Positions 57,435-63,551 of a stretch of 64,000 nucleotides of DNA are shown here, one piece after another. How positions within the stretch are numbered: the first letter of the stretch is position 1; each line of letters begins with the position of its first letter. The notes beneath the pieces are model-generated. The model was not told the origin of the DNA and searched no databases. It saw only the letters and a list, made by a program, of their open reading frames with translations. Origin of the DNA: Corynebacterium propinquum DSM 44285 (GTDB taxonomy: Bacteria; Actinomycetota; Actinomycetes; Mycobacteriales; Mycobacteriaceae); contig NZ_AQXC01000001.1 of the NCBI RefSeq assembly GCF_000375525.1, positions 62,001 through 126,000 on the forward strand. Reading direction: 5' to 3'. The position numbers and the translations under genes are program-made.

Positions 57435-57722
57435 CGTGCCAATTAATTCTCTCCACGCCCATTATTGCTAGCAATCGGGCGCCTTAAGAGATAGTCGTTT
57501 ACAAAGGGCGGAAAGTTCCCACCTACTTTCGGCGGATAAGAACTCACTGTCTCGAACCACCATAGCCTACACGCATCCTCGGGTGTCGCTCATAATCGCA
57601 TGCAAGTACGCAAACTTAGACAGCTACCTTTAGACTATGGGCAGACCATCGTCGTCACAGTGATAGAACGTCACCGTGATAAGCCATCACCGTTGTAAAC
57701 AGATTGATGCGAGGAACCTGCT
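57435..57722. promoter_or_regulatory. Divergent ctaB / tkt-tal promoter region
   Basis: 288 bases without a gene. A TAGACT -10 candidate for the pentose-phosphate genes lies near 57631. The region just before tkt (57650-57720) has GTCAC/GTGAT direct repeats (GTCACAGTGATAG, GTCACCGTGATAA) that could bind a regulator. Confidence 0.5.
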
Positions 57723-60700
57723 GTGTCACTGTCCCCCAAATTAAAAGCTAAGACCGTACGTCGCTACCCAAGTGACTGGAGCGAGACCGATACCCGCGCA
57801 GTAGATACCGTGCGTTTATTAGCCGCCGATGCCGTGCAGAACTGCGGTTCTGGCCACCCTGGCACCGCCATGTCTCTCGCGCCTTTGGCTTATACGCTCT
57901 ACCAGCGTGTGCTCAACCACAACCCTGCCGATCCACAGTGGGCTGGGCGTGACCGTTTTGTACTTTCCGTGGGCCACTCATCCCTGACGCAATATATTCA
58001 GCTTTTCCTTGGTGGTTTCGGCTTGGAACTCGAGGATTTGCAGAAGCTGCGCACCTGGGGTTCATTGACTCCAGGGCACCCAGAATACGGCCACACTGCT
58101 GGCGTCGAAATCACGACTGGCCCATTGGGACAAGGCTTGGCGTCATCGGTGGGCATGGCTATGGCTGCCCGCAAAGAACGTGGTCTATTTGACCCGGACG
58201 CACCTGCCGGTGAATCCCCATTCGATCATTACGTCTACACCATTTGCTCGGATGGCGACGTACAGGAGGGTGTAACCGCCGAAGCGTGCTCACTGGCGGG
58301 TACGCAACAGCTCGGAAACTTGATTGTCTTCTGGGACGACAACAACATCTCCATTGAAGATGACACCGATATTGCATTCTCGGAGTCCGTCGCTAAGCGC
58401 TACGAAGCTTACGGTTGGCAAGTTCTCGAAGTAGGTTCCGGCGAAGACGTCGCCGCCTTGGAACAAGCAATCAAGCTTGCGAAACAAGACACGTCACGGC
58501 CGACCTTTATTCGCGTACAAACTGTTATCGCTTACCCCGCACCCAACGCTATGAACACGGGCGCATCGCACGGTGCCGCACTCGGAGAAGAAGAAATCCG
58601 TGCGACAAAGAAGTTCCTCGGTTTTGATCCGGATCAACATTTCCATGTCGATGACAAGGTGTTGTCACACACGCGTGAGCTGGTCAACCGCGGCACCGAA
58701 GCACAACAGGCATGGCAGAGGCGTTTCGATGCGTGGGCAGAAAAAAACCCTGAGCGCAAACAGCTATTCGACCGCATGACGGCCTACGAGCTACCGGAGA
58801 ACTTCGGCGAGAATATGCCAGTCTGGGAACCTGATGCCAAAGGCATTGCCACCCGAAAGGCGTCGGCGGAAGCCATCCAGGTATTAGCTGCCCAGCTGCC
58901 GGAACTATGGGGCGGATCGGCAGACCTTGCCGGCTCTAACAACACGGTAATCAAGGGCGCACCGTCGTTCGGTCCACAGTCGATTTCGACGGATATGTGG
59001 CAGGCCGATCCCTTGCAGGGACGTAACTTGCACTTCGGTATCCGTGAACACGGAATGGCCGCAATCATGAACGGCATCGCGTTGCACGGACACACTCGCG
59101 TGTACGGCGGCACGTTCTTGATTTTCTCGGAATACATGTACCCAGCTGTACGTCTGGGCGCGTTGATGGGCACTGACACCTATTACGTATGGACACACGA
59201 CTCCATCGGCCTGGGCGAAGATGGCCCAACCCACCAACCCGTGGAAACCCTGGCTGCGTTGCGTGCGATCCCGAACTTGTCGGTAATCCGCCCTGCCGAT
59301 GCCAACGAAACTACCCAAGCGTGGGTTGCCGCAATGCGGAAGGAGAAAGGCCCCAAGGGGCTGGCGTTAACCCGACAGAATGTTCCAGTATTGGACGGCA
59401 CCGCCGAAAAAGCCGCAGAGGGCGTCGCCAAGGGCGCTTATGTCTTGGTGGAAGCCTCCGCCTCGCCAGAATTGATCCTGATTGCGACCGGCTCCGAGGT
59501 GCACCTGGCAGTAGCTGCAGCACAGCGCTTGGAAGCCGAAGGAACCCCAACGCGAGTGGTATCGGCTCCGTGTCTGGAATGGTTTGAGCAACAGGATGAG
59601 GCTTACCGGGAATCGGTATTGCCACGCGAAGTTCCTGCACGCGTCTCCATCGAAGCTGGTCTGGCGATGCCATGGCACAAATACACCGCACCTTATGGAC
59701 GCCAAGTTTCTTTGGAGCACTACGGAGCTTCTGCCCCGGCGGAAGAACTCTTCGAAAAATTCGGCTTTAGCGTCGACAATGTGGTCGCTGAGGCGAAGAA
59801 GGCTCTGGATCAAGCACCGGCCGCCTCGAAGGTTTCTGGGTGGGGTGAAAAAACCACCTCCGGCACCGCTTCTGAATCGCTGGCCCCAGCACATGCCGTG
59901 GATTCTGCAGACGCCGATTCTGCACTCGCGGAACTAGCCGCGGTCGGCACCGCTACTTGGCTGGATGATCTCTCCCGCGAGCGCATTACTTCCGGCAACC
60001 TCAAGGAACTCATTGAAACCAAATCGGTTTTGGGTGTGACCACGAACCCATCAATTTTTTCTGCTGCGATGAGTAAAGGTGATTCTTACGACGCTGATAT
60101 CGCGGAGCTAGCACAGAAGAACCCAGCTGCCGACGAAGCAGTCTATGAATTAGCAATTGCCGACGTGCAAGATGCGTGCGACGTTTTGTCGTCGGTGTAT
60201 GAACGCACTGGTGGTGCCGACGGTCGCGTCTCCATCGAGGTTGACCCGCGAATTTCTGCCGATACTGACAAGACCTTGGAGCAAGCTCGCAGCCTGTGGC
60301 AGAAAGTCGGCCGCGAAAACGCAATGATCAAGATTCCGGCCACCCCAGAAGGCTTGTCGGCGATCACCGCGACCCTAGCAGAAGGAATCTCTGTCAACGT
60401 CACCTTGATTTTCTCCGTAGAGCGCTACCGCGAGGTCATCCAAGCCTATAAGGAAGGCATCAAACAAGCCCGCGACAACGGCCATGACCTGTCCAAGATT
60501 CACTCGGTTGCGTCTTTCTTCGTTTCCCGGATCGATACCGAAGTCGATAACCGTCTCGACGAGATTGGCACGGATGAAGCACGCAGCCTGCGCGGACAGG
60601 CTGGTATCGCTAACGCTCGACGTGCATACGCTCTGTTTATTGATGAGTTCCAGGACTTTGACATTCCAGGCGCCAACAAACAGCGGCCGCTGTGGGCGTC

Positions 60701-60995
60701 GACTGGTGTCAAAAACCCACACTATCCTGCCGACATGTACGTAACGGAACTGGCTGGTCCGGACACCGTAAACACTATGCCGGAAGCAACGCTGGAGGCC
60801 GTACTCGAAAGCGGTATTATCAAGGGTGACACGTTGACTGGTGCTGGTGACAAAGCTGGCGCAATCTTTAGTCAGCTGGAATCCGTAGGCATCGATTTCG
60901 CCGAGGTCTATGCCAAACTCGAGCTTGAAGGCATTGACAAGTTCGTTAAGGCATGGGAAGAACTGCTGGAATCTATGTCGCAGCGTTTGCGCTAA
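57723..60995 (+). CDS. Transketolase-transaldolase fusion
   Basis: One 1090-codon frame. Residues 1-~697 are a complete transketolase: [17 protein letters not shown]/Mg motif [18 protein letters not shown]...WDDNNIS, and a C-terminal domain to [12 protein letters not shown] ~35-residue Ala/Ser/Thr-rich linker follows. Residues ~733-1090 are a complete transaldolase ([20 protein letters not shown]..., Schiff-base Lys870 in [26 protein letters not shown]). In other corynebacteria known to me, tkt and tal are separate adjacent genes. An in-frame GTG in the linker (about 59901) could allow internal initiation of Tal. GTG 57723 has AGGA 8 nt upstream. A run of six A at about 59850 is the one place where a sequencing indel could mimic fusion. 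Confidence 0.93.
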
Positions 60996-61076: not shown

Positions 61077-62603
61077 GTGACGTCGAATCCTTGGCATAAT
61101 CCCCTGCGCAATCCGCACGATTCCCGACTGCCGAGGATCGCCGGCCCTTCGGGCATGGTGATTTTCGGAGTCACAGGCGATTTGGCCTATAAGAAGCTCC
61201 TGCCAGCTATTTATGATTTGGCCAACCGCGGCCTGTTATCCTCAGCATTCGTTCTGGTTGGCTTTGGCCGCAGGGAGTGGTCCAACGACGATTTCGTGGA
61301 TTACGTCAAAGCCGCCGTACAAGACGGAGCGCGCACTCCGTTCCGGGAAAATGTCTGGCGCCAGCTGGCTGCCGGCATGGAATTTGTCACCGGGGGCTTT
61401 GATAACGACGGTTTCGACCAGCTCGCCGCACGAATCGCTGAGGTAGATCAACACCGCGGTACCGCTGGCAACTGGGCTTACTATCTGTCCATTCCCCCCA
61501 GCTTTTTCTCCGAAGTATGCCACCAGCTCGAGCGCACCAATATGGTCAGCACCGAGCCCGGTGCTTGGCGTCGGGTGATCATTGAGAAACCGTTTGGCCA
61601 CGACGAAAGCTCAGCTCGCGAGCTCAACGAGATCGTCAACCAGGTATTCCCTGAGGATTCGGTCTATCGCATTGATCATTACCTTGGCAAAGAGACCGTT
61701 CAAAACATCCTGGCGCTGCGTTTTGCCAACTCGATTTTTGAGCCGATCTGGAATGCCCGCCACATCGACCACGTCCAAATCACCATGGCCGAAGACATCG
61801 GGCTCGGAGGGCGCGCCGGGTACTACGATGGTATTGGGGCTGCACGCGATGTCATGCAAAACCACCTCTTGCAGCTTTTGGCGTTGGTCGCGATGGAAGA
61901 ACCCATTTCGTTCACCCCCGATGCGCTGCGCGCTGAGAAGGTGAAAATTCTGCAAGCAACCTCGCTGGCCACCCCGCTGGAGCATACTACCGCGCGTGGG
62001 CAATATTCCGCGGGCTGGCAGGGCTCTCAACAAGTCCAAGGCCTGCGTGAAGAAGAAGGCTTCGATCCCGAATCGACCACCGAAACCTATGCAGCCTGCA
62101 CGCTGGAAATTAATTCACGTCGATGGGCTGGGGTGCCGTTCTACCTGCGCACTGGCAAACGCTTGGGGCGCCGCGTGACCGAGATCGCGCTGGTTTTCAA
62201 GCACGCTCCCCACCAACCCTTTGCGAAAAACGGTGCCCAGCATGGACAAAATACCGTGGTTATCCGTGTGCAGCCGGATGAAGGCGTGCTGATGCGCTTC
62301 GGATCCAAGGTTCCCGGCTCTGGTATGGAAGTTCGCGACGTGAATATGGATTTCTCCTACGCAGAGGCATTTACCGAGGAATCCCCCGCCGCCTACGAGC
62401 GCCTGATCCTCGATGCGCTGCTAGACGAGTCAAGTTTGTTCCCGACGAACAAAGAAGTGGAACTAAGCTGGGCGATTTTAGACCCGATGCTGGAATACTG
62501 GCAGCATGCAGACCAACCAGAAAGCTATCCCGCGGGTAGCTGGGGGCCTGCCAGCGCTGATGCGATGTTGGCACGACGCGGCCATGCCTGGCGGCGCCCG
62601 TAG
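61077..62603 (+). CDS. zwf: Glucose-6-phosphate dehydrogenase
   Basis: A 508-residue G6PDH, first oxidative pentose-phosphate step, making NADPH. NADP-binding VIFGVTGDLAYKKLLPA (about 22-38), substrate/active-site RIDHYLGKETVQN (about 199-211), and KPFGHD are present. GTG 61077 follows AAAGGA by 12 nt. It lies 81 bases after tkt-tal and before opcA; a short GCCCAT/ATGGGC hairpin (61041-61056) stands in the gap. Confidence 0.97.
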   Translation: MTSNPWHNPLRNPHDSRLPRIAGPSGMVIFGVTGDLAYKKLLPAIYDLANRGLLSSAFVLVGFGRREWSNDDFVDYVKAAVQDGARTPFRENVWRQLAAGMEFVTGGFDNDGFDQLAARIAEVDQHRGTAGNWAYYLSIPPSFFSEVCHQLERTNMVSTEPGAWRRVIIEKPFGHDESSARELNEIVNQVFPEDSVYRIDHYLGKETVQNILALRFANSIFEPIWNARHIDHVQITMAEDIGLGGRAGYYDGIGAARDVMQNHLLQLLALVAMEEPISFTPDALRAEKVKILQATSLATPLEHTTARGQYSAGWQGSQQVQGLREEEGFDPESTTETYAACTLEINSRRWAGVPFYLRTGKRLGRRVTEIALVFKHAPHQPFAKNGAQHGQNTVVIRVQPDEGVLMRFGSKVPGSGMEVRDVNMDFSYAEAFTEESPAAYERLILDALLDESSLFPTNKEVELSWAILDPMLEYWQHADQPESYPAGSWGPASADAMLARRGHAWRRP

Positions 62604-62645: not shown

Positions 62646-63551
62646 ATGATTCATTTCCTCACGGATACGACCACCACCGATATTGCCCGCGAGCTTAATC
62701 TGGCGCAAGAGCATTACACGCTGACCACTGGCCGAGTGTTGACGCTCATCATCATCGCTTCAGCGAGTGACGACGTTGAGGCCATCTTGCGCGCCAACCG
62801 CGATGCATCGCACGAGCACCCGGCCCGGGTACTGATTTTGTTGACGGCTGACTCTAACGATGACACCTACCTCGATGCTGAGCTGCGCGTTGGTGGTGAA
62901 GCCGGGGCATCTGAGATCGTCGTCATGACGCTCAACGGCGCGATGGCACACCACCCGTCGTCGATCGTCACCCCGTTGTTGCTGCCGGATACACCTATCG
63001 TCGCGTGGTGGCCTAATGTGCATCCTGATAACCCAGCTGCGGACCCAATAGGAAAGATCGCGCAACGTCGCATCACAAGCGCCCAGGACTTTTCGCAACT
63101 AGCCCGCAACTATGCGCCCGGTGACTCGGATACCGCGTGGTCGGCGATCACCGCGTGGCGTGGCATCGTTGCCTCAGCTCTGGATCGTTACCCACACCAC
63201 GACGTGCACTCAGTGACCATCATCGGGAATCAAGGTCCCGAGCACGCCATTGCAGCAGGCTGGCTTGCCGACGCTTTAGGAATCCCTGTAACCCGTACGG
63301 CCGTGAGCCATGAGGATTCACCGCATGCTATCGATGCACTGCACTTAACGATGGATGATGGTGAAACTCTGAGCATCTCCCGCGCTGATAACCACACTGT
63401 CAGCGTCCACGTCCCAGGGGCTGCGCGTAGCCTCGTCGCGCTCAACGTCCGTAGCTGGGCAGAACGACTATCTGAAGAATTGCGGCATCTGGAACCAGAC
63501 GATACATACGCACGTGCCCTTCGTGCAGCCAACGACGTGAAAGGACAATAA
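62646..63551 (+). CDS. opcA: OpcA, G6PDH assembly/allosteric subunit
   Basis: A 301-residue OpcA that associates with Zwf and is needed for full G6PDH activity in corynebacteria. Regions LLPDTPIVAWWPNVHPDNPA (about 116-135) and the N-terminal TTTTDIARELNLAQ are typical. AGGAG precedes ATG 62646. The stop overlaps the pgl start (TAATG). Confidence 0.95.
   Translation: MIHFLTDTTTTDIARELNLAQEHYTLTTGRVLTLIIIASASDDVEAILRANRDASHEHPARVLILLTADSNDDTYLDAELRVGGEAGASEIVVMTLNGAMAHHPSSIVTPLLLPDTPIVAWWPNVHPDNPAADPIGKIAQRRITSAQDFSQLARNYAPGDSDTAWSAITAWRGIVASALDRYPHHDVHSVTIIGNQGPEHAIAAGWLADALGIPVTRTAVSHEDSPHAIDALHLTMDDGETLSISRADNHTVSVHVPGAARSLVALNVRSWAERLSEELRHLEPDDTYARALRAANDVKGQ

Follow-up and report, generated by a model that had tools for sequence, protein, structure and literature searches.

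A predicted transketolase-transaldolase fusion in Corynebacterium propinquum and two related corynebacteria

Transketolase and transaldolase share intermediates in both directions. Transketolase forms sedoheptulose-7-phosphate and glyceraldehyde-3-phosphate, transaldolase turns these into erythrose-4-phosphate and fructose-6-phosphate, and transketolase in turn uses the erythrose-4-phosphate. With transketolase working on either side of the transaldolase step, these two enzymes account for all three reactions in the non-oxidative branch of the pentose phosphate pathway. In the window studied here, a stretch of 64,000 nucleotides from C. propinquum DSM 44285, one long open reading frame was predicted to hold both enzymes. 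The locus therefore raises the questions of whether this frame is a genuine gene for a bifunctional protein, how widely such a gene occurs, and whether the cell also makes either enzyme separately.

Both enzymes lie complete in the frame, with a linker of about 38 residues (697-734) between them, since each half matches a solved structure from end to end by sequence comparison. Residues 7-696 correspond to 7-699 of 3rim, a transketolase of 700 residues, and residues 735-1090 to 4-360 of 3r5e, a transaldolase of 360 residues (Table 1). The original prediction had placed a full transketolase at residues 1 to about 697 and a full transaldolase at about 733 to 1090 of a single 1090-residue frame, joined by an Ala/Ser/Thr-rich linker of some 35 residues. 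These boundaries hold to within a few residues (1-696 and 735-1090), and 20 of the 38 linker residues are Ala, Ser or Thr. The product has a predicted mass of 117.8 kDa. Pfam matches above cut-off are Transketolase_N (23-358), Transket_pyr (374-555) and Transketolase_C_1 (571-682), the transketolase matches spanning about 23-687 in all, and TAL_FSA matches at 746-1084. Among the NCBIfam models, TIGR00232 (transketolase) scores 819 bits against a cut-off of 682 and TIGR00876 (mycobacterial-type transaldolase) 426.6 bits against 233.75, over residues 744-1084. Three other transketolase models stay below their cut-offs: NF004558 (563 bits, cut-off 788), NF004559 (256, cut-off 488) and NF004556 (216, cut-off 575).

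Table 1. Features of the tkt-tal locus, in positions of the 64,000-nucleotide window
Feature	Position	Strand	Basis and remarks
Fused tkt-tal gene	57723..60995	+	1090 codons plus TAA stop, GTG start; single open frame (ORF list)
Putative RBS GAGGAA for tkt-tal	57711..57716	+	6 nt 5' of GTG 57723; read from sequence
Transketolase part, residues 1-696	57723..59810	+	Pfam, NCBIfam, full-length match to 3rim, invariant residues
Linker, residues 697-734, Ala/Ser/Thr-rich	59811..59924	+	Between 3rim and 3r5e matches
Transaldolase part, residues 735-1090	59925..60992	+	Pfam, NCBIfam, full-length match to 3r5e
A6 run in linker	59848..59853	+	Sequence; not conserved in relatives
In-frame linker GTG (Val726)	59898..59900	+	Proposed internal start; ATC in C. 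pseudodiphtheriticum
Next gene, putative zwf	61077..62603	+	ORF list; synteny
Following gene, putative opcA	62646..63551	+	ORF list; synteny

The residues expected of working enzymes are present in both halves. In the transketolase part, H45, H85, H119, H283, E442, H504 and R551 are invariant throughout a 30-row alignment; we take these positions to have cofactor-binding and catalytic roles, as in the E. coli and yeast enzymes. The cofactor motif GDVQEG...DDNN is found at residue 178, and the transketolase PROSITE patterns match at residues 31 and 498. The three domains, a score above the curated cut-off and the cofactor and catalytic residues together mark this half, as judged from its sequence, as a transketolase. 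In the transaldolase part, T773, N775 and K870 (within MIKIPAT) are invariant in the 15 alignment rows that include transaldolase; K870 is presumably the Schiff-base lysine, and T773 and N775 are assumed to be catalytic positions. The pattern PS01054 matches at residue 771. PS00958 has no match in the protein, and by eye its last position alone differs. With its full-domain score, its lysine and its signature residues, this half is a predicted transaldolase of the TIGR00876 type.

The two genes downstream are presumably zwf, for glucose-6-phosphate dehydrogenase, and opcA, and the upstream gene, on the opposite strand, we take to be ctaB. The same flanking genes are found in Corynebacterium sp. 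MSK297, in C. pseudodiphtheriticum and in four unfused Corynebacterium loci, with opcA partial in one of the unfused. Outside the fused clade opcA is weakly conserved: in four other Corynebacterium loci it matches at about 40-49% (one match being partial) and the adjoining zwf at 70-78%. Between ctaB and tkt-tal, 5' of the RBS, two near-identical direct repeats, GTCACAGTGATA and GTCACCGTGATAA, lie at 57654-57682, each containing the near-palindrome TCACnGTGA. The repeat pair is present in MSK297 and absent from C. pseudodiphtheriticum, and is possibly an operator. Excerpts of a study of C. glutamicum give its cluster as tkt-tal-zwf-opcA-devB (PMC2230225), with the same gene order and the same enzyme families; there, however, tkt and tal are two genes, whereas the fused clade has one frame lacking a tal start or RBS.

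The same fusion occurs in Corynebacterium sp. MSK297 (G109) and in C. pseudodiphtheriticum DSM 44287 (G221), and the sequence GCGAGGAACC, 5' of the tkt-tal GTG, is identical in both. The linker is 38 residues long in C. propinquum DSM 44285 and MSK297 and longer by 13 codons (39 nt), in frame, in C. pseudodiphtheriticum. Ratios of dN/dS (Nei-Gojobori) were computed for C. propinquum with MSK297, C. propinquum with C. pseudodiphtheriticum, and MSK297 with C. pseudodiphtheriticum. In this order the transketolase part gives 0.053, 0.015 and 0.017, the transaldolase part 0.074, 0.041 and 0.057, and the linker 0.24, 0.34 and 0.26, the values of both pairs with C. pseudodiphtheriticum being rough owing to saturated dS (pS about 0.7). 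The low ratios show purifying selection on each of the two enzyme halves, so both are kept as protein. The fast evolution of the linker means that little in its sequence hints at a specific role; its best-conserved piece is DSADAD, directly before the transaldolase domain. A single frame conserved in three species under selection is what we would expect of a bifunctional fusion.

The fused gene appears to be the only source of both enzymes. In all three fused genomes the transaldolase half is the single match to PF00923, and the transketolase half is the single strong match to PF00456, at 456-459 bits. Each of these genomes has, elsewhere, a second and weaker match to PF00456 (Transketolase_N), of 44-46 bits (cut-off 22), in a frame of 941-976 aa, whose size suggests a candidate pyruvate dehydrogenase E1 subunit. 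A search of the C. propinquum DSM 44285 genome with the whole protein gave one match and did not pick up this second frame. The claim that fusion would fix a 1:1 ratio of the enzymes thus stands for their synthesis, because these genomes have no transaldolase match besides the fusion and, for Transketolase_N, nothing beyond the weak second match. Starts of tal were compared at 62 unfused loci, which are not a random sample, many having been chosen for tkt and tal in one frame or for long frames and one species possibly being included twice. The start taken at each locus, the best-scoring candidate and hence biased toward a Shine-Dalgarno match, is ATG in 58 of the 62 and GTG in four; in 54 it lies 27 nt 5' of the codon that aligns with residue 741, and a Shine-Dalgarno sequence of at least 5 nt precedes tal in 48. 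In all three fused species, no ATG occurs in the 120 nt searched before transaldolase, and no candidate start there has a Shine-Dalgarno sequence of 3 nt or more.

A transaldolase query run over 242 Corynebacterium genomes placed transaldolase in an open frame of more than 1000 aa in only three, C. propinquum, MSK297 and C. pseudodiphtheriticum (1095, 1095 and 1108 aa); in the other 239, by the same query, the two enzymes do not share a frame. This agrees with the expectation that tkt and tal are usually separate neighbouring genes in corynebacteria. The next-longest transaldolase frames, in G095 (967 aa) and G210 (964 aa), have tkt out of frame and are not fusions, nor are the copies at contig edges in G024 and G145, where tkt is again out of frame. 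In G045 and G114 the transaldolase gene is split between contigs, and the frames that hold its N-terminal piece measure 125 and 147 aa. In G013, G076, G122 and G236 transaldolase aligns as two pieces inside one 415-aa frame, so that a small in-frame insertion is likely near query position 240 of transaldolase. In a sample of the phylum (396 genomes, 393 with a match), C. propinquum alone, among the matches listed, has one that runs through both halves uninterrupted by a stop. Fifteen stretches with long frames, again among the matches listed, contain no frame with both enzymes, and six of the 15 have no transaldolase match. A sample of the class comprised 148 genomes, 135 with a match and 13 without at E 1e-60. 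Besides C. propinquum it yielded 11 places with transaldolase frames above 900 aa; at ten of them tkt lies in a different frame, and the stretch around the last lacks tkt. GTDB species contigs were scanned as well. In the 79 loci from the best 80 of the 261 relatives, a set that may omit records close to C. propinquum DSM 44285, the fusion was seen in MSK297 and C. pseudodiphtheriticum only, three of the 79 loci (L065, L071, L094) having no tkt stop inside the locus and so being uninformative. Two further loci, L068 and L090, were rejected as fusions, as a transaldolase-like match lies upstream and transketolase is in its own frame.

In a midpoint-rooted tree of 65 loci, which covers part of the genus and from which three duplicates of fused loci were dropped, the fused sequences of all three species make up a single clade (support 1.0, stem 0.288). 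As the fused sequences cluster with this support, one origin is the simplest reading, and a single origin of the fusion is most likely, as judged from the tree. The step itself seems mechanistically easy, because tal often lies in frame with tkt with one stop between them: matches run over both in one frame in at least 50 of 199 unfused genomes, and a single stop codon separates the two genes in 27 of the 50 listed. Fusion is thus one mutation away in many species, yet it is found in one clade, and a general advantage is therefore not suggested. At four loci from some actinobacteria (L165, L169, L170, L172) the transaldolase frame is open far upstream over an out-of-frame tkt, up to 1539 aa, and so a small frameshift near the end of tkt could also make a fusion.

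The protein was modeled as a monomer with AlphaFold2, from the 30-row alignment of which 15 rows include the transaldolase part. The model consists of two confidently folded halves (mean pLDDT 88.9, pTM 0.66), and pLDDT falls below 50 in residues 700-731 of the linker and in a loop at 211-217. The linker is accordingly predicted to be disordered over 700-731. In its most likely working form, transketolase would be dimeric, with two transaldolases attached by flexible tethers.

Other readings of the locus were weighed against these data. The A6 run in the linker is the one feature that could speak for a sequencing or assembly error that took out a stop or shifted the frame, and the original prediction had named this run as one to check and a frame-breaking indel in the linker as a result that would refute the fusion. 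Nothing else favors an error. A codon substitution leaves A5 at this place in MSK297, C. pseudodiphtheriticum lacks the run, and the frame is intact in both, so a frame error at this run is rejected; moreover, the two additional genomes carry the same fusion with substitutions in the linker and a length difference of 13 codons that preserves the frame. Because both relatives share the fusion with its frame kept, sequencing error is practically excluded. The fusion is real and, in the genomes covered, restricted to this clade. A different reading is that free transaldolase is translated as well, from an internal start at GTG 59898, which is in frame in both C. propinquum and MSK297. This earlier suggestion was not supported: no Shine-Dalgarno sequence of even 3 nt precedes the GTG, and C. 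pseudodiphtheriticum has ATC in its place, with candidate starts (TTG, GTG) that sit elsewhere and are also without one. With the usual tal start and RBS gone, and with ATC in place of this GTG in C. pseudodiphtheriticum, the fused species are unlikely to start transaldolase separately, and initiation at 59898 in particular seems very improbable.

The linker bears on two further readings. It is likely to be open to proteases, because it is predicted to be disordered, evolves fast and varies in length; a precursor cut there would give free transketolase and transaldolase, and the fusion would then matter for translation only. However, no shared cleavage motif is apparent by eye, and the best-kept piece, DSADAD, adjoins the transaldolase domain, so that we regard cleavage as improbable. 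At the other extreme, the active sites might dock and pass on sedoheptulose-7-phosphate, glyceraldehyde-3-phosphate and erythrose-4-phosphate in true channelling. The two enzymes do share successive intermediates in an established pathway, and, in excerpts from one set of calculations, proximity of transketolase and transaldolase is useful when triose-phosphate isomerase competes strongly for glyceraldehyde-3-phosphate (PMC6345930). The same excerpts hold, however, that proximity is unlikely to make an average cascade faster; by calculation, the effect depends on the second enzyme being fast or on the intermediate being strongly competed for (PMC6345930). The disorder and variable length of the linker and the pTM of the model also speak against docking. 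Since the linker is predicted to be disordered, a built tunnel is disfavored and proximity effects are allowed; a rigid channel between the enzymes is not supported, and proximity effects from the tether are possible. True channelling thus seems unlikely. Doubtful, too, is a self-contained transketolase-transaldolase-transketolase relay, in which this clade would have the three steps of the branch together in one particle and erythrose-4-phosphate and sedoheptulose-7-phosphate would mostly be passed on inside the particle rather than released.

The frame most likely encodes one bifunctional transketolase-transaldolase, as its sequence predicts, and we consider it highly probable that the whole account holds, namely one enzyme on a flexible tether, derived from a fusion of single origin and serving as the sole source of both activities. 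The fusion would have arisen once, in the ancestor of the clade, when the stop codon of tkt was lost, or bypassed by a small indel, before the adjacent tal. The start codon and RBS of tal would then have decayed, in an order of steps that we infer, leaving the fused protein as the only source of both activities. The transketolase half probably dimerizes as is usual for its family, and a flexible, disordered tether of about 30-50 residues would attach a whole transaldolase to each subunit. Its function would be that of the standard non-oxidative pentose phosphate pathway, with the enzymes held at 1:1 and two successive hand-overs possible in one particle. The gain, if any, would most likely be equal dosage and a modest proximity effect and not a rigid channel.

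Fusions of pentose-phosphate enzymes are already known. Bifunctional transaldolase/phosphoglucose isomerases are described in excerpts from several sources (NF007080; PMC4062416, PMC4378227, PMC6191907, PMC7920976) and likewise join transaldolase to another sugar-phosphate enzyme, but there the partner is phosphoglucose isomerase and transaldolase comes first, whereas in tkt-tal transaldolase is C-terminal, its partner being transketolase. Assignment of tkt-tal to NF007080 was rejected: the model scores 402 bits against the transaldolase half (cut-off 712) and aligns over positions 3-371 only of its 949. At two loci, L063:9476-12301 and L174:3306-5999 (the latter frame extending to the end of its stretch), transaldolase is N-terminal in frames of about 900-940 aa without transketolase; these are perhaps transaldolase/phosphoglucose isomerase fusions. 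In Thaumarchaeota, ribulose-phosphate 3-epimerase is fused to the N-terminal part of transketolase, as excerpted from PMC11237513. This also combines part of transketolase with another non-oxidative pentose phosphate enzyme, but in archaea, with a split transketolase and an epimerase as partner. Fusions of glucose-6-phosphate dehydrogenase and 6-phosphogluconolactonase, according to parts of PMC3148214, PMC4470864 and PMC10819308, similarly unite successive pentose-phosphate enzymes in restricted clades, but belong to the oxidative branch, to eukaryotes and to unrelated domains; neither "transketolase" nor "transaldolase" occurs in the text of PMC3148214. A natural transketolase-transaldolase fusion was not found in the portions of the open-access literature covered, which included PMC5702140, PMC11237513, PMC9521846 and PMC11651106. 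Excerpts of PMC11651106 credit both C. propinquum and C. pseudodiphtheriticum with a complete pentose phosphate module; the names of the two enzymes and the word fusion are absent from its main text. Automatic annotation may show the fusion.

Transketolase and transaldolase have served as a model pair in proximity-channelling calculations, as excerpted from PMC6345930. A natural fusion that apparently supplies both activities alone, within a genus where the enzymes are otherwise unfused, offers a comparison from which to learn whether tethering enzymes of central metabolism affects flux, dosage or nothing. The fusion can further serve to mark the C. pseudodiphtheriticum group, and it could be why a separate transaldolase would seem "missing" from annotations of that group.
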